Of a stretch of 64,000 nt of DNA, positions 55,080-64,000 are shown piece after piece. Both the position numbers and the translations under genes were made by a program. The notes beneath the pieces are model-generated. The model did not search any database and was not told where the DNA came from. It saw nothing but the letters and a program-made list of their open reading frames with translations. Positions within the stretch are counted from its first letter, which is position 1. The number at the start of each line of letters is the position of its first letter. The stretch is from Candidatus Sumerlaeota bacterium (lineage in GTDB: Bacteria > Sumerlaeota > Sumerlaeia > SLMS01 > JAHLLQ01): positions 18,566 through 82,565 of the forward strand of contig JASGMJ010000019.1 of NCBI GenBank assembly GCA_030156535.1, given 5' to 3'.

Positions 55080-55156
55080 CGGGGCGTAGCGCAGCCTGGT
55101 AGCGCACTCGCTTGGGGTGCGAGAGGTCGCTGGTTCAAATCCAGTCGCCCCGACCA
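55080..55156 (+). tRNA. tRNA-Pro (anticodon GGG), CCA encoded
   Basis: Acceptor stem CGGGGCG/CGCCCCG, anticodon arm CTCGC-TTGGGGT-GCGAG, T arm GGTTCAAATCC, 3' ACCA. Confidence 0.95.
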
Positions 55157-55165
55157 TTTTCTTCT

Positions 55166-56515
55166 CTACACAACTGCTTTCAGATCAACGATCCGGGCGC
55201 TGCAACGCTCGGGTCGTTCTTCTTTGTCACTGCAATTTTGTGCAGAAACGGGCTGTTTTGAGGCCTTCCAGCGGTCGACGACCTGGTCGATCTTGTCGGT
55301 CACTTCGCGGCGAAGATCGGCCACGATCTCTTCCAGTTCATACCCGACGTAGTGGCGATCTGTGATGCCCTTCGCTGCATGCCCGATGAAGAGTTCGACG
55401 TAGAAATCGTTCCATCGTTCAGCCACTCGGTGGCGACGAGCATGGGTGGGGATCGTCCTGCGGAGGCCCTTGGGTTCGATGTGCCCCTTCTTCTTCCAGT
55501 CTTCGATCGCACCTTCCAGCGCCTTGCCCAAGGCCTTCCACGTCGGGATATGGCCCAAGACTCTGCCGCCGGTCCTTGCTCGACTGCGAAGGTCGTCCCA
55601 GACGACACGGGGCAAAGGAACGCGCCGCACGGACTCGTTCGTCTTCACCGAGTGGTCGTCCACATCTTCGATGTCCAGGACACCGCTCTCCAGATCGACC
55701 TGCTTCCAGCGAAGGAAGAAGGCCTCCTGGACCCTCATGCCGACCAGAGCCTGAAGGTAGACCGCAGTGACCAGCTTCTGCCTGTAGGGCTCCTGGTCAT
55801 GAAGCCAACCGGCGAATTCCAGGACGTCTTGGATTGAGAGCGCCCGCCGGGTGGCCTTGTCGGCAACCGTACGCGCCTTCGTGGCGAGATCCCTGGGAAA
55901 TCCCGCCAGCTTCGTCACGTGCTGGTAGTGTGCCGGGTGGCGAAGAGACATCTTCGCCGACGTCATGTTGATGGGCTCCCAGTAGTGCTTCAGCGTGTAG
56001 ATGCTGACGCGACCCTTCTTCTCCAACAGGCGTGCTTTCACATCCTTCATGTAGGAGGTCACCGTCGTATCCGTAACTTCCTCCCAGAACGCCAGACCTT
56101 GCTCATCACACCAGTCGATGAAGTATCCAGCGTTCTTCTGAAGGCGAAGCTGGCGGGGTTTGCTGCGCCCCGCCTTTTCCAGTCCGGAGATGAAGGCACC
56201 AGCGATGGTCTTGTTCGGCTTCTTGACCAACTTCCGAGTGGCCTCATGGGCTGGGTCGATGAGGCCATGAAGACGCTCGACGGCGTCGAGAGCCGCCGAC
56301 CCGGCATCAAGAGCTGAGATCGTCAGCCTCCTGTACGAGCCGCTCGAACTCTTCCCGCTGGCTTTCCAATCGCCCGACTCCTGCCTGGCGAGGGTGAGAT
56401 TGATTCCGTTGGGACCGTGCACCTTGTACCTTCCTTCTCCTTTCGCGGTGATGGTCAGGGCACCGATCTGGATGATCGACGCCCCTGTCTTCTTCCTGTC
56501 GTTCGATTCGCTCAT
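55166..56515 (-). CDS. int: Tyrosine recombinase (phage-type integrase)
   Basis: ALVGMRVQEAFFLRWKQVD (R-I), THARRHR (HxxR), FIGHAAKGITDRHYVGYELEE (H and catalytic Y); adjacent to tRNA 3' end. Confidence 0.92.
   Translation of the reverse strand: MSESNDRKKTGASIIQIGALTITAKGEGRYKVHGPNGINLTLARQESGDWKASGKSSSGSYRRLTISALDAGSAALDAVERLHGLIDPAHEATRKLVKKPNKTIAGAFISGLEKAGRSKPRQLRLQKNAGYFIDWCDEQGLAFWEEVTDTTVTSYMKDVKARLLEKKGRVSIYTLKHYWEPINMTSAKMSLRHPAHYQHVTKLAGFPRDLATKARTVADKATRRALSIQDVLEFAGWLHDQEPYRQKLVTAVYLQALVGMRVQEAFFLRWKQVDLESGVLDIEDVDDHSVKTNESVRRVPLPRVVWDDLRSRARTGGRVLGHIPTWKALGKALEGAIEDWKKKGHIEPKGLRRTIPTHARRHRVAERWNDFYVELFIGHAAKGITDRHYVGYELEEIVADLRREVTDKIDQVVDRWKASKQPVSAQNCSDKEERPERCSARIVDLKAVV
55187..55227 (+). 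terminator. Hairpin plus T-rich tail downstream of tRNA-Pro, inside the integrase 3' end
   Basis: AACGATCCGGGCG-ctgcaa-CGCTCGGGTCGTT followed by CTTCTTTGT. Confidence 0.6.
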
Positions 56516-57083: not shown

Positions 57084-57106
57084 GGCCCTGGGTGCGAACC
57101 AGGGCC
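57084..57106. repeat. Perfect 8-bp inverted repeat just upstream of the Rep-like gene
   Basis: GGCCCTGG-gtgcgaa-CCAGGGCC. Confidence 0.7.
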
Positions 57107-57118
57107 GACGGAGAGAAG

Positions 57119-58738
57119 ATGATGGAACAACACCTCGCCCCCTATCTACCGCCACAGGCCGGGAGTTTTTTCTGGGCGCACCGCGGCGGTGCTCGGCTGC
57201 CACGCAATGCTGACGGCTCCCTTCTGCTTCCCGACGTCTGTCTCGATCTCCGCGAAGGCCGGGGTGATCAATACGACTTCGTACTCACGGGACGCGGGTC
57301 GACCATTACGGGGACGGCAACTCCGAAGCCTTGTACCGAGGCGAATGCGAAGCGCCGGGACCGGAAGGCTCGGATGCAAGGGGCCGTAGAGAAGAAGAGG
57401 CGGTCGAGGCGTCACCTTGTTCACGTCGAGTGGAAATTCGATCCGGACGCCGAAATCCCCATGGAAGAAGAGCACATCCCCGGCGGCATCACACGCACTC
57501 ACTACCATCTGCGCTTTCGTGATACGGGTTCATGGCACGGGTTGCCGAGCGCGGAAACTTTGCGGACGGCACAAACCGGCCCCCCGGAAGAGACCGTGCT
57601 CATCATCGACATCGATGAAGACGAAGCCAGACACATCGAAGGCGCGACGTTTGAGGTTTCCCGTGGCGAGATCGAGTGGATCCTTACGAAGTTTAGCCCA
57701 GCGAACATCCGTCAGGCCTTCGAGATGGCCTGGATCACCGAAGACAACGAGAAGCTTTCGGCGGTCTTTGATCGTTTCGTGCACCGACACGAACGCCTGA
57801 TCCGAGACCATGCCACGGGAAGACGCTACACTCCCGTAGAAGTGTGGGAGGACCGCGATTCACTGAGCCAAGGTCGCACAGACAGGCCGATCAAGCACCG
57901 AACCCCCAAGGTCACCGCTGCGCTCCGCGAGGCCCTCTCTGCCATCAATCTGGATCACTGGTATCGATGTCTGTTCGTGACCGCTGCCCCGCCCCCGGAC
58001 GTCAACGACGTGCAGTTCCTCCGCGATGCCGAGGAGATTCTCAAGAGGCTGGCACTGGGCCCGGAGCCTTTCTACTGGCTGCGTTCGACTGAAACCCGAG
58101 CCTGGCGACCGAAGGGGCCATACGATCGCCCTGCGCCCCTGAGGCTCCACGATCACACTCTGTTGACGTCTTGGAGGGACATTCGGCCCGAAGAACGGGA
58201 CGACTGGGCGAATTCAATCGAAGGGCAGCTCATCGTCGAGATGAAGAGGAATTACCCCTCGATGTCCTCCCGCGCTATTCATGTCCAGAGGGTTCACAAC
58301 CGTCGACACATGAGCCGTCTTGTGCGGGGACAGAAGGGCGGTCCTCCCTATATGTGCAAGGACGTTGACTACCCTGGCCGAGCAATCGGTCGTCGTTGGT
58401 GGAACGACGGCAATGAAGACCCCGGCCTCGCAGCCAGCTTTGGTGAAGAACTCGTGCTGAATCAAGTTCAGGTATCCGGCGATCGATGGCGCGTTCAAGT
58501 TGATCAGAACACTTTTCAACGCGTGCGGCAGTCGATCCTCGAATATCTTGATCGCCCTACCCCCGCCCATGCCGTCCAGTTCGCCTTCTACGCTTTGGAG
58601 CGCCCTACTATCTTCGGTGTCCTGGTCGATGCGGGCGTCGACGTGAGCGCTGTGCCTCAATCGTGGCGGTTCCGGAGGTCGGTGATCTTGGACTTCATCC
58701 CGGCCAGCCTTGGCACATGGCGGGCGCGTTCCCCCTGA
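57119..58738 (+). CDS. Mobile-element protein of unknown family, possibly divergent HUH/rolling-circle Rep-like
   Basis: WYRCLFVTAAPPPD, FYWLRSTETRAWR...LRLHDHTLLTSW, PPYMCKDVDYPGRAIGRRWWN resemble in order the Rep core beta-strand, HxH and YxxK...GRxW motifs; weak, motif-level only. Start at ATGATG after GGAGAGAAG. Confidence 0.5.
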   Translation: MMEQHLAPYLPPQAGSFFWAHRGGARLPRNADGSLLLPDVCLDLREGRGDQYDFVLTGRGSTITGTATPKPCTEANAKRRDRKARMQGAVEKKRRSRRHLVHVEWKFDPDAEIPMEEEHIPGGITRTHYHLRFRDTGSWHGLPSAETLRTAQTGPPEETVLIIDIDEDEARHIEGATFEVSRGEIEWILTKFSPANIRQAFEMAWITEDNEKLSAVFDRFVHRHERLIRDHATGRRYTPVEVWEDRDSLSQGRTDRPIKHRTPKVTAALREALSAINLDHWYRCLFVTAAPPPDVNDVQFLRDAEEILKRLALGPEPFYWLRSTETRAWRPKGPYDRPAPLRLHDHTLLTSWRDIRPEERDDWANSIEGQLIVEMKRNYPSMSSRAIHVQRVHNRRHMSRLVRGQKGGPPYMCKDVDYPGRAIGRRWWNDGNEDPGLAASFGEELVLNQVQVSGDRWRVQVDQNTFQRVRQSILEYLDRPTPAHAVQFAFYALERPTIFGVLVDAGVDVSAVPQSWRFRRSVILDFIPASLGTWRARSP

Positions 58739-58960: not shown

Positions 58961-59383
58961 TCATTCCTGAAGGTTCAACTCGATGCCGAACTCCGCCCTG
59001 AGGTCGTCCAGCACATTGTCGATGCATGGGCTGATCTCAACGATCTCTGGGGAAAGAGGCCCAGGGTCCACCAGGCATTGCCGTAAATGAAGACCCTCAA
59101 GCAAGGCAGCGAAGAAGGCCTGGGCCTCGTGGGCGAGGACCCCCTCCAAGCTCACCTTCGACGCTTCTCCTACACGTTCCTCCCGGCAGAAGAGCCAGGC
59201 AGACGACCCGCTCAATCCCAGGCCCAACCACAGGGCCGTCTCCTTACCACGGGCATTGCGAATTCTGACCCCAACGGGGATCTCGCGCCCCTCTTGCAGA
59301 AGACGATTCCTCTCTTCTTCTGCCTGTTCACCTTCGAGAACGATGCCGACCATTGTGGGCTCCTTCCTGATGATGGATTCCAC
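58961..59383 (-). CDS. Small protein of unknown function, fourth gene of putative defence cassette
   Basis: MESIIRKEPTMVGIVLEGEQAEEERNRLLQEGREIPVGVRI...; 4-nt gap from the helicase stop. Confidence 0.6.
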   Translation of the reverse strand: MESIIRKEPTMVGIVLEGEQAEEERNRLLQEGREIPVGVRIRNARGKETALWLGLGLSGSSAWLFCREERVGEASKVSLEGVLAHEAQAFFAALLEGLHLRQCLVDPGPLSPEIVEISPCIDNVLDDLRAEFGIELNLQE

Positions 59384-59387
59384 ATAT

Positions 59388-62111
59388 CTACCGTCTTCTA
59401 CTGTCCCAGCCCTGCTGGAGGAAGGCTCTTCTATCCACCGCGTTCAGGACCGCTGCGCAAGATTCCCAGGGAACGGGCTCGGGCTTCTGGTATCGCTCAT
59501 CGAAGGCGTGCTTCTTCGGCACCGCCGCGATGATCTTCTTGGCCTTCTCGACCTCGCCTTCCGCAACCTGCACCCATACGTCTTCCAGAACATCGGGGAC
59601 CTGGCCGAAGAGCCTGAAGATCTCCTGAAGACGAGAAGACAGGAGCTGGTGGACGCGGTCTTCTACCGAGTCCTTGTACCGCATGTTGTAAACGTACACC
59701 GTGTCGCGGACCTGCCCGATGCGTTGAATCCTGCCCTTCCGCTGCTCAAGCCGGGTAGGGTTCCACGGTAAGTCCAAGTTTATCAGAGTCCCCAGGCGCT
59801 GAAGGTTGAGGCCTTCACTGGCGGCGTCGGTACCCAGGATCAGCCGTAGTTCACCTCTTCTCACCATCCTCTTCAGTTCTTCTCGCTCTTCTCGCTGAAG
59901 AAGACCCCCCTTCATGATGGCTGATCTTCCGGAGCCCGCGTAGATCCCGATAGGCTCTTCGGGAATGTCTTCTGCGGAGAGCTTCTTCGCGAGCCAGATG
60001 ATGGAATCGAAGTACGCAGAGAAGACAATGCAGCCTTGTTCCAGCCACGGCCCCGTCGCCCCCTGACCTTCGAGAAGAAGGCGCTTTACGACAGCGTACT
60101 TGGGGTCTTCACCGGGGAATGCCCTCAGGGCATCGACAAAGGCCTGGAGGAGCTTCCGCTCAGAAGGCGTCAGCGACTTCAGGGCCTCTTCTTCTGCCTT
60201 CCCGACCTCCTCTTCGTAATCGACCTCATCGATGTCCTCCCAGGTGCCCAGCATCTTCTCGGCGGTCAGCCTTCCCGCCTCGATCGTACTACCCACACGC
60301 CGGAGCAACATGGTCTTCAGGAACCCCGCGCCACCCATCCGCTGTTTGAGAAGTCCGCAAAACTCCTCTGCATGCCCGTAGGCGTCCTTCAGGTAGCTGG
60401 GCAGCAGGATGGCCTCCGCATCTTCCTCACCGAAGAGCTGGACCTTCACGGGCTTCAGGAAGGGCTCGTTGGTCTCGGGGTTGATCGTCTTCTCCAGGTA
60501 CTCCCTGGTCCTTCTGACGATGTGGCGAATGAAGGGGCTGTGGTGGGTGCCGAAGCTCTTCCTGAGCCGCCTGACCCGATCCCGTGTGGGCGGGGTGAGC
60601 TTCTCCCACGCGTCGCCCGATACGACCGCCTGCTTGTCCTTCGCCTTCAGGGCTCTCCGGATCTCTACGAAGTCCCGGTCTTCGATTCGAGAGGTGGCCG
60701 GGGGCAGTGGATTGCGCACCCACTCCCACAGCTCCCGATCGTCTTCAGGCAGGTCTTCTCGTCCCTGAACGACTGGAAGACATCGCTCGGCCTTTCGCCA
60801 TTCACTCCACATATTCCCAAGGACGCTCTCTTCTCCATACCCCAGGGCGCTCAGGAGGTCCCATGCCTCCACCGGGTACATCTGCACCGGGGTTGCCGTC
60901 GCGAGAAGAAGGCTTTTCGTATTCCCGGCGATGTCGTACAGGAACTGAAGAAGATTGTTGGGATCCGGCTTCTCGCCCTCACGATCCTCGCCGAGGTTCC
61001 TTCTCCGCGCCCGGTGGCTTTCGTCGATGATCACCACCTCCCAGTTCATCTTCTTCACGAACTCCGTGGCCTGGGTTCCCGCGGTGATCTGTCCCTGCGA
61101 GATGATCCCGATCCGACGCGGGCACTTCCTCACTCCCTCTGGGCCGATCGCCGGGTACTCGATGCCCTGCTCGTCCACCCATTGCTTGCCGTTCCATACC
61201 GCCGTGGGCATGTCCAGAAGGTCGCGCAGTTCATCCTGCCACTGCCACATCAGCGTTTTGGGCACGATGATCAGGCCCGGTCCACCGCCCTGTAGTACCA
61301 TCAGCATCGCGCTCAGGGCCAGTTGCAGGGTCTTCCCCAGGCCCACCTGGTCCGCGAGCACCAGACGGGCTCCGTGGGGCCCACGATGGGCGTCAAAGGC
61401 CATTTGAACGAAGAATTTCTGGTGCTCCCAGAGACCATACTCTTGTCGGTATACAGGCAACTCGATGATGGGGGACGCCTGATTCGGATCTTCGCGCCAT
61501 GATTCAACGGATGGCACGATCTTCCGGTGGGCCAGCCTTCCCGCGTCCTCGATCACGAACTCGGCCAGAGGGATGCCCAGGGCCCAGAGGGCATCGAACT
61601 CTTCCTGGACCCAGGTCACCGCCTCTACTGAGGCATCTTCCCAGACCAGCTCGTAATTCAACTGCCAGGCGTTCTGGGTTTCGTTGGCACTGCCGATGAA
61701 GCTCGTCTTCGTACCGTCAGCCAGAGTGACCACCCCGGCCTTGCCGTGGATCAGGCCGAACTTCTTCGTCGGCAGGACGCGCACCTCCATGCGGCCATCG
61801 CGCAAGAAATCATGAAGGCGTTGAAAGCGTGGCTTGGCCGCCTCTCCCCACTTCTCTGGCTTCCAGGAACACCATTCCCTCCGCATCGCCATGTTGGCCG
61901 CCTGGGCCGTGATAACATCCCGCTCGTCCAGCTCGCTGTTGCAGACGATGCGAACCTTGCCCTGCATCGATTCCAGCGCTTCCCCGGCCACCTCCATGAT
62001 GGATGACGAAAAATACCCGGCCACGCGATCGTAAGCGAGCGCCCCCTTCAGCCGTTCGTTCAGGAACGACGAATCCAAAGGCTGGCGGCGGGAGGAGAAG
62101 CGGTTGATCAC
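59388..62111 (-). CDS. PLD-family nuclease domain fused to SNF2-type helicase
   Basis: PLD-like LIHGKAGVVTLADGTKTSFIGSANETQNAWQLNYELVWED; helicase LADQVGLGKTLQLAL, WEVVIIDESHRARRR, LILGTDAASEGLNLQ, QRKGRIQRIGQVRDTVYVY. Confidence 0.92.
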   Translation of the reverse strand: MINRFSSRRQPLDSSFLNERLKGALAYDRVAGYFSSSIMEVAGEALESMQGKVRIVCNSELDERDVITAQAANMAMRREWCSWKPEKWGEAAKPRFQRLHDFLRDGRMEVRVLPTKKFGLIHGKAGVVTLADGTKTSFIGSANETQNAWQLNYELVWEDASVEAVTWVQEEFDALWALGIPLAEFVIEDAGRLAHRKIVPSVESWREDPNQASPIIELPVYRQEYGLWEHQKFFVQMAFDAHRGPHGARLVLADQVGLGKTLQLALSAMLMVLQGGGPGLIIVPKTLMWQWQDELRDLLDMPTAVWNGKQWVDEQGIEYPAIGPEGVRKCPRRIGIISQGQITAGTQATEFVKKMNWEVVIIDESHRARRRNLGEDREGEKPDPNNLLQFLYDIAGNTKSLLLATATPVQMYPVEAWDLLSALGYGEESVLGNMWSEWRKAERCLPVVQGREDLPEDDRELWEWVRNPLPPATSRIEDRDFVEIRRALKAKDKQAVVSGDAWEKLTPPTRDRVRRLRKSFGTHHSPFIRHIVRRTREYLEKTINPETNEPFLKPVKVQLFGEEDAEAILLPSYLKDAYGHAEEFCGLLKQRMGGAGFLKTMLLRRVGSTIEAGRLTAEKMLGTWEDIDEVDYEEEVGKAEEEALKSLTPSERKLLQAFVDALRAFPGEDPKYAVVKRLLLEGQGATGPWLEQGCIVFSAYFDSIIWLAKKLSAEDIPEEPIGIYAGSGRSAIMKGGLLQREEREELKRMVRRGELRLILGTDAASEGLNLQRLGTLINLDLPWNPTRLEQRKGRIQRIGQVRDTVYVYNMRYKDSVEDRVHQLLSSRLQEIFRLFGQVPDVLEDVWVQVAEGEVEKAKKIIAAVPKKHAFDERYQKPEPVPWESCAAVLNAVDRRAFLQQGWDSRRR

Positions 62112-62794
62112 GGGCGTAGAAGATCTCCAGTTTGACGATGGAGGTCATGGATGTAGCTTTCGAGGGCTTCTACTACATCTTCCTCGGAGCTGCCGAGCCC
62201 ACGACTGAAGACGATGGACAGCATTTTGTCGCGTTTATCTTCGGGCTGATCTGTCAGCAAACCTCTTACGACACTCTCACGGACGCGCTCGAATCCGACG
62301 GTCGAGCTTTCGATCAGCATCTTCAAGAGCGCCTCGAAGCAAAGTACATGGCCCGCAAGGGATTTCCTCAAATCGAGGTTCTTAGTCGGTTCTTTGCAAA
62401 GCTGTATCAGAGATCGCTTGTCGCCGGTTGCAAGGAGGCTGTCGGGACGAATCGAAGCCGCGGTCATCAGAAGGGCTTCACCCTCATCGATGCCAGGTGA
62501 CACCAGTTGCTGTGCCCTGTTGAGCAAGTCATGATCCTCTATGATTCTACAGGATTGCACGAACTCAAGGGCGCGAGCTACTCCCCCCTCGCCGTATCGA
62601 ACCAGGAGCTTCTTGTCCTTTCGGATCTTGAATCGGGCCGTGGGCAGAAGGAGAATGCTGTCGTGGGAGGTTCCAAGGACGATAAGTAGCTCATCCAGAA
62701 GGTTGCACGCCGCGAACTTCAGGACGATGTCGTTATCCGCCAAGACGATCAGATTTGAACTTGGACAGGCGCTTCCGTCAGTCGAAGAAGCCAC
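62108..62794 (-). CDS. PIN-like domain protein (putative RNase)
   Basis: LIVLADNDIVLKFAACNLLDELL, SPGIDEGEALLMTAA, SLLATGDKRSLIQL: spaced acidic residues as in PIN folds; overlaps neighbours at both ends. Confidence 0.7.
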   Translation of the reverse strand: MASSTDGSACPSSNLIVLADNDIVLKFAACNLLDELLIVLGTSHDSILLLPTARFKIRKDKKLLVRYGEGGVARALEFVQSCRIIEDHDLLNRAQQLVSPGIDEGEALLMTAASIRPDSLLATGDKRSLIQLCKEPTKNLDLRKSLAGHVLCFEALLKMLIESSTVGFERVRESVVRGLLTDQPEDKRDKMLSIVFSRGLGSSEEDVVEALESYIHDLHRQTGDLLRP

Positions 62795-63762
62795 TCATAA
62801 GCCTCCGTCGGCATCAGTTCCTCAGTGAGATTCTGGACCATTCGCTGCCTCACGATCTGAACTGAGTGTTCGTTGGGTTCCAAGATCTTGAGCGCGGCGA
62901 ATGCGACAGGAAAGAACTTTCTCGTCCATCCATAATTCAGCGCAACAACGCCGGGGGCGATGCCGTTCTTCTCCCCGAAGCGCCTTGAGGCGGCGGCTAG
63001 CTCGTCACCGGTGAGTTTTCTCTCGGCAGTGAATCTTGGATCCTCCATGCCAGTAAGAACTTGGGCGGCGAATGTGTTCGCTGCCTGCTCCTCATGATCG
63101 TTTTCATTCCGCTCCCATGATTGATCAAGCAGGATATCCGTATCTTCAGGAAGGTGCCCCAGAGCCAGATGGCCGAGTTCGTGAGCAAGGATGAAAGCCA
63201 TCGCCGACTTACTTGTAATGTTCTTCGACAACACGATTGCCGGTCTGCCATCAATCCTCGCTGAAAGACCGTCCATCTTTTTCGTTCCAGGAGGGAACTC
63301 GCCGATGTGAATGACTGGAATTCCATGAGCCCAGCAGTAGTCGAGGAGCCCTTCCAGCGTGACGCACTTCGCACCAGTCTTGAGGATTTCCTCTCGTAAA
63401 GGACCAGGGGCAGTGGGCAAAGGAACAGGACCAGTGTTGCACCCAAGCACGGCTACTCTGGCGGCTCGGAATGCGATCATCTTCGCAAGTCGCAGGTCGT
63501 CCTCGTTGGTGTCGGAACGCTTCTTGAACTTGGCGCTGACCTGAGTGAATCGAAGCTCACCTCCAGATTGGAGTGAATCGATTGTAAGTCCCAATCGATT
63601 TGCCACATAGAGCTGGGCCTCGCTGAATCCAGCCGGATTCAATGCTGCTTCATCGTCCCACCATTCTGGCAGGATGCACGCGTTGAGATACTTCCTTTTT
63701 ACGCCCGCCGCTGAAAGCCTCTGACGGAGGGTGGTCATGGGATTTGTTCGCGTCGTGGTCAT
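62749..63762 (-). CDS. ImmA/IrrE-family metallopeptidase
   Basis: HExxH motif in AMAFILAHELGHLALGHLPED with downstream DHEEQAANTFAAQVL. Confidence 0.9.
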   Translation of the reverse strand: MTTTRTNPMTTLRQRLSAAGVKRKYLNACILPEWWDDEAALNPAGFSEAQLYVANRLGLTIDSLQSGGELRFTQVSAKFKKRSDTNEDDLRLAKMIAFRAARVAVLGCNTGPVPLPTAPGPLREEILKTGAKCVTLEGLLDYCWAHGIPVIHIGEFPPGTKKMDGLSARIDGRPAIVLSKNITSKSAMAFILAHELGHLALGHLPEDTDILLDQSWERNENDHEEQAANTFAAQVLTGMEDPRFTAERKLTGDELAAASRRFGEKNGIAPGVVALNYGWTRKFFPVAFAALKILEPNEHSVQIVRQRMVQNLTEELMPTEAYEWLLRLTEAPVQVQI

Positions 63763-64000
63763 GAACAGCCTCCTTTCACGCTCACATGCGCTCTTAGCTG
63801 CCGCAGGGTACGAAGGCCAACATCAGAGACCATCGGAAACGAGCGCTTTTGGGATCACTACCGCATCGGCACTACCGGTGCAGTAAAGCAGAATCCTTCA
63901 TCGCGTGTCAAACCCCTACTCACGCATGATCGTTCTCCACGGCGCCCGCGAGCACCTTCGCGCTGGCGGCGTCTTCTCCCCAATGACCCAGGGTCACGTT

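Follow-up and report, generated by a model that had tools for sequence, protein, structure and literature searches.

A probable Type-2 BREX-related operon on a tRNA-Pro island with an embedded ImmA-PIN gene pair

The window analysed here, a stretch of 64,000 nucleotides from a Candidatus Sumerlaeota bacterium (C48:18566-82565 of its assembly), closes with four tightly packed genes that belong to the tail of a larger defence operon. In the reading that we consider probable, this is a Type-2 BREX-related (BR) operon lying on a tRNA-Pro island, into which a toxin-antitoxin-like pair, consisting of an ImmA/IrrE metallopeptidase and a predicted PIN nuclease, is embedded, either to abort infection as a back-up or to act as an addiction module. 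The restriction-like core has already been described, and the part worth pursuing is the ImmA-PIN pair, which is compact and mobile, occurs in a prophage defence hotspot of laboratory-tractable E. coli and has been recruited at least twice into BR operons, at different positions. The features on which this reading rests, in the window and on a second contig of the assembly (C51), are the following.

55080-55156, plus strand: tRNA-Pro(GGG), the integration site (ARAGORN)
55134-55159, plus strand: att repeat of 26 bp at the tRNA-Pro 3' end, TTCAAATCCAGTCGCCCCGACCATTT
55166-56515, minus strand: tyrosine integrase of the operon-bearing island, adjoining tRNA-Pro (PF00589, E=8e-7)
58961-59383, minus strand: 140-aa open reading frame, with a likelier start at the ATG at 59353
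59388-62111, minus strand: PLD (HKD-type) nuclease and SNF2 helicase in one protein of 907 aa, the fourth core gene
62108-62794, minus strand: predicted PIN-fold nuclease, 228 aa from a GTG start, predicted toxin of the pair
62749-63762, minus strand: ImmA/IrrE (M78) metallopeptidase, 337 aa, with a small helical N-terminal domain
63920-64000, minus strand: C-terminus of a DUF1156 DNA methyltransferase, 26 codons and stop, cut by the contig end
G000:C51:4272-4937: stand-alone DUF3780 (PF12635, 172.5 bits; detected by tblastn)
G000:C51:4934-8029: DUF499 ATPase (PF04465, 103 bits against a cut-off of 23)

The end of the window coincides with the end of its contig, so the four genes form the 3' part of a longer, truncated operon. 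The last 81 nucleotides (63920-64000) show 92% identity to residues 970-995 of a 995-aa methyltransferase from a same-genus genome, and the N-terminal 43 residues of the same enzyme are located at G000:C51:3-131, with 91% identity to the protein of the same-genus relative. Residues 44-969, corresponding to about 2.8 kb, are absent from the assembly, the two ends being seen on C48 and C51, and because this portion is unassembled, we infer both the join between the contigs and the intactness of the methyltransferase. In operon order, C51 carries DUF499, DUF3780, a 970-aa AAA/SMC-like ATPase with a seemingly PHP-like N-terminus, judged by eye, and a Schlafen AlbA_2 protein. The DUF499 protein additionally presents an Fn3_assoc match near its C-terminus, which fits the FnIII-like domains reported for Type-2 BR. 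The full operon would then read DUF499, DUF3780, AAA/SMC-like ATPase and Schlafen, DUF1156 N6-methyltransferase, ImmA and PIN, and PLD/SNF2.

An exact second copy of the TTCAAATCCAGTCGCCCCGACCATTT repeat, in the same orientation, lies past the other end of the operon at G000:C51:9124-9149 (blastn of the window against C51). Since the 26-bp repeats flank the whole stretch and a tyrosine integrase stands beside the tRNA gene, the operon lies on an island, roughly 21 kb in size by our own estimate with the unassembled gap included. In a same-genus genome (G001), the same operon carries other inserts and is found between apparent serine recombinases, assigned by eye, rather than next to an integrase. 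Between DUF3780 and DUF1156 it holds a Gabija-like pair of OLD-TOPRIM and UvrD helicase genes (L055:2599-6305), and its DUF1156-PLD/SNF2 interval is occupied by YaaC, AbiGi-like and Abi-alpha-like genes.

The 140-aa open reading frame has no family match in Pfam, NCBIfam, PADLOC or PHROG, and across 147 genomes a single homologue (51%) was found, which closes an unrelated DEAD/SNF2 helicase cluster. We rejected it as a system component, since this lone homologue adjoins the unrelated cluster and not PLD/SNF2; it is probably island-associated. The island also holds, on the plus strand at 57092-58738 of the window, a 548-aa open reading frame for which Pfam, NCBIfam, PADLOC, PHROG and plasmid searches gave no homologue. 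On C51, DUF499 is preceded by a small HTH gene of excisionase-like type (G000:C51:8026-8292, minus strand, L058). Genes resembling it occupy this position in E. coli (L084) and in the same-genus genome too, and in another genome (G002, L208) a homologue of the C51 gene, at 51%, is found ahead of an unrelated DEAD/SNF2 helicase cluster.

The 907-aa protein presents PLDc_2, SNF2 and Helicase_C matches in Pfam and scores 1247.7 bits against NCBIfam NF042964 (“phospholipase D-like ... anti-phage protein”), above the curated cut-off of 1100. It is also matched by the PADLOC PLD_Helicase model at E=4e-239; for the PIN and 140-aa proteins PADLOC, a check that the preliminary description of the locus had proposed, returned no match above a cut-off. 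Residues H122/K124/N143/E154, together with the GxGKT and DE(SH) helicase motifs, are kept across 23 homologues. In annotated plasmids and E. coli chromosomes, PLD/SNF2 homologues close a DUF499-DUF3780-DUF1156-PLD/SNF2 operon, an arrangement published as the DUF499-centred Type-2 BR system, for which the main text of the description proposes the HKD-helicase as primary effector and reports Schlafen and PIN auxiliary effectors (Rakesh & Krishnan 2026, PMC12839542). The 907-aa protein is likely the effector of such a system. The present locus shares with it DUF499, DUF3780, the DUF1156 methyltransferase, seen by its ends only, and the HKD/PLD-SNF2 helicase, in the order of the annotated loci, and differs from it by the ImmA-PIN pair between methyltransferase and helicase and by the AAA/SMC-like ATPase and Schlafen genes between DUF3780 and methyltransferase; ImmA is not mentioned in the main text of PMC12839542. 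DISARM was considered and rejected, as the 907-aa protein reaches 146 bits for DrmD against a cut-off of 610. PLD and SNF2 modules are common to both, but what DISARM divides between DrmC (PLD) and DrmD (SNF2) is fused here in one protein of another family.

The metallopeptidase carries HELGH at residues 194-198 and matches Peptidase_M78 (PF06114, E=1e-9), and both the HExxH motif and a downstream E225 are invariant in the homologue alignment. It belongs to phrog_18577 (E=2e-70), a PHROG of unassigned function; its AlphaFold model has a pLDDT of 86.6, with CapP (7t5t, E=1e-4) as the best PDB match in Foldseek, and its N-terminal domain is, by eye, possibly a distant relative of XRE. The protein is predicted to be the antitoxin or regulator of the pair. 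RosmerTA (RmrA/RmrT), the spr1629-family antitoxins and CapH/CapP of CBASS resemble the pair in the ImmA domain only. The ImmA protein matches the PADLOC RmrA and capP models at E values of 1e-9 to 1e-8 and gives 27 bits against NF052239, far under the cut-off of 335. RosmerTA was rejected because neither the window PIN nor its 11 aligned homologues matched RmrT; the only match, in one member, was to PDC-S70 at E=0.02. CBASS genes did not turn up in the region covered.

The PIN protein has no match above cut-off in Pfam, NCBIfam or PADLOC and belongs to phrog_15597 (E=1e-32), likewise of unassigned function. Residues D20, N21, D22, D103, E106, D125, E154 and D189 (A1 numbering) are invariant, and an AlphaFold model built with 23 homologues reaches a pLDDT of 90.7. 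Nearly all of its confident Foldseek matches are PIN/VapC structures, with probabilities up to 0.99 and E values of about 0.1, so that the fold match hints at a PIN identity rather than proving it. A profile search against PDB sequences gave no match. Since homologues lack the first 13-14 residues and the model is disordered there, the true start probably lies about 14 codons after the GTG.

Much of the preliminary description is upheld at the level of single genes. Its four minus-strand reading frames are all present, in a tightly packed, defence-related locus, and the 4-nt GTGA overlap between PIN and helicase and the 4-nt gap before the 140-aa frame are as described, while the 46-nt overlap between ImmA and PIN may be an artefact, given the doubtful PIN start. 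The HELGH metallopeptidase is borne out by the M78 match and the PLD-SNF2 fusion as an anti-phage helicase-nuclease by its NF042964 score; the PIN-like nuclease, first guessed by eye, is supported by the predicted fold and the invariant acidic residues.

ImmA-PIN is an autonomous, mobile two-gene module. When PIN homologues were grouped at 80% identity, before cyanobacteria were searched, 22 clusters were obtained, of which 7 are P2-type, 2 lie in BR operons and 13 elsewhere; in 20 of the 22, the pair occurs without PLD/SNF2. The P2-type clusters adjoin P2-type replication endonuclease, portal and terminase genes, placing ImmA-PIN between genes A and Q of P2-like prophages, a slot known as the old/tin defence hotspot that encodes diverse anti-phage systems (PMC9122126, PMC9519451). 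Outside this slot and the BR operons, copies are found on plasmids or solitary on chromosomes, some among housekeeping genes. ImmA stands immediately 5' of PIN in every locus surveyed before the cyanobacterial search in which both genes are complete, with a reading-frame gap that ranges from -154 to +14 nt and is 2 to 5 nt in most. ImmA is probably paired with PIN in toxin-antitoxin-like fashion, as had been proposed from the window alone; the sole exception seen to the tandem order is a cyanobacterial locus in which the two genes are divergent (L242:5271-7304). The distribution is patchy, with the pair present in 25 of 5,426 E. coli genomes and 12 of 386 cyanobacteria, as well as on plasmids and viral contigs. 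Among the same 386 cyanobacterial genomes, NF042964 was detected in 8, and the two occur together in a single genome, that of Pseudanabaena, within one operon. Scanning viral sequences for PIN with an alignment as query recovered copies, whereas a single-sequence query found nothing, and the Enterobacter ImmA had no match in the phage collection.

Operons of Xre-COG2856 and PIN genes have been predicted as toxin-antitoxin systems (Makarova 2009, PMC2701414). The present pair resembles these in combining a Zn-peptidase HExxH (ImmA/IrrE) protein with a PIN-type nuclease in one mobile prophage or plasmid operon; it differs in that the N-terminal domain of the phrog_18577/phrog_15597 subfamily is, by eye, only distantly XRE-like and in that its PIN proteins are longer (about 203-259 aa) and have no Pfam PIN match. 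No curated name for the subfamily was found in PADLOC, NCBIfam or PHROGs, and a literature search for the pair in phage defence returned general prior art only, with no phage test. In the 157-nt gap upstream of the pair in the window, a search for a promoter of its own found weak inverted repeats and nothing resembling a sigma-70 site.

To place the pair within BR operons, we compared about 31 Type-2 BR loci, a non-random sample counted by hand, for which the counts are raw and carry no background rate. In most of them, DUF1156 and PLD/SNF2 are separated by no more than 100 nt. Internal cargo is present in 13 of the ~31, and in 9 of these 13 it includes toxin-antitoxin-type genes. ImmA-PIN occurs in two, the window and L008 of Pseudanabaena biceps; in the latter it is inserted between DUF3780 and DUF1156, a slot that differs from the one occupied in the window. 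The remaining toxin-antitoxin-type cargo comprises a PIN pair (L015), Phd-VapC (L048), VapBC (L082), YhaV with DUF433-DUF5615 (L236), DUF5615 (L238), HEPN-MNT (L239) and a lone MNT (L235). In the window and in L006, L015, L048, L082 and L209, the last cargo gene overlaps the start of PLD/SNF2 by exactly 4 nt, so their expression is probably coupled.

In the back-up-module reading that we favour, the DUF1156 methyltransferase would mark self DNA and PLD/SNF2 would unwind and cut unmarked DNA, both roles being taken over from the published model, while PIN would act as an RNase toxin kept silent by ImmA and released once the core system suffers damage or can no longer cope. CapP is triggered by ssDNA, and ImmA could sense DNA damage or ssDNA in a CapP-like manner. 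The closest competitor holds that ImmA-PIN is a selfish toxin-antitoxin passenger, which entered by chance or through island mobility and stabilises the island by addiction, with no link to restriction. We regard this as a real possibility that falls somewhat short of even chances: in the majority of genomes, plasmids and prophages the pair stands by itself, few BR loci carry it, in differing slots, 11 of its 12 cyanobacterial carriers lack PLD/SNF2, and the slots in question are filled by many unrelated toxin-antitoxin families. The exactness of the 4-nt overlap in the window and five further loci, however, speaks against loose insertion, and its location in the P2 A-Q slot hints that ImmA-PIN itself serves in defence. 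That location, where seven PIN clusters sit between replication endonuclease and portal genes, is also what recommends taking the pair as a two-gene anti-phage system in its own right, placed alongside BR in ordinary defence-island style. This we consider conceivable, if rather doubtful, as the hotspot may hold non-defence cargo too and solitary copies among housekeeping genes fit plain toxin-antitoxin biology equally well. The back-up-module, passenger and stacked-system readings are not mutually exclusive.

The preliminary description had instead proposed a self-contained new system of four genes, ImmA, PIN, PLD/SNF2 and the 140-aa protein, in a combination that it could not match to a named system. 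The tight packing and the overlaps favoured that proposal, which now appears highly improbable: the contig ends inside the methyltransferase, the PLD/SNF2 protein belongs to NF042964 and the named Type-2 BR core, and the genes are not co-inherited, ImmA-PIN occurring mostly without PLD/SNF2 and most PLD/SNF2 loci without ImmA-PIN. Both outcomes that the description had itself named as counting against it, homologues that do not co-occur and a match to a known system, are thus largely what we find. When a window stops at a contig end, what is left of a known operon can look like a new system.

Beyond the back-up role in this one locus, Type-2 BR operons might generally host guard pairs that abort infection once a phage hits the restriction machinery, with ImmA-PIN as a new defence system, a broader proposal that we judge unlikely at present. 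Such pairs would be ImmA-PIN here and VapBC, HEPN-MNT or DUF433-DUF5615 elsewhere, and translational coupling to the helicase would tie control of the toxin to the core. If ImmA-PIN does guard its operon, the locus would offer a direct way of testing why toxin-antitoxin genes gather in defence operons.

Two neighbourhoods of the pair outside BR operons are also recorded. On Rhizobiaceae plasmids (L068, L070, L067), ImmA-PIN adjoins a conserved trio consisting of a hypothetical protein, a bis-aminopropyl spermidine synthase family protein and an ATP-binding protein. In a cyanobacterial locus (L247:1727-6603), the pair divergently adjoins a 1046-aa SNF2 helicase that belongs to another family and matches PLD weakly, which may be a third case of ImmA-PIN associated with a PLD/SNF2 protein.
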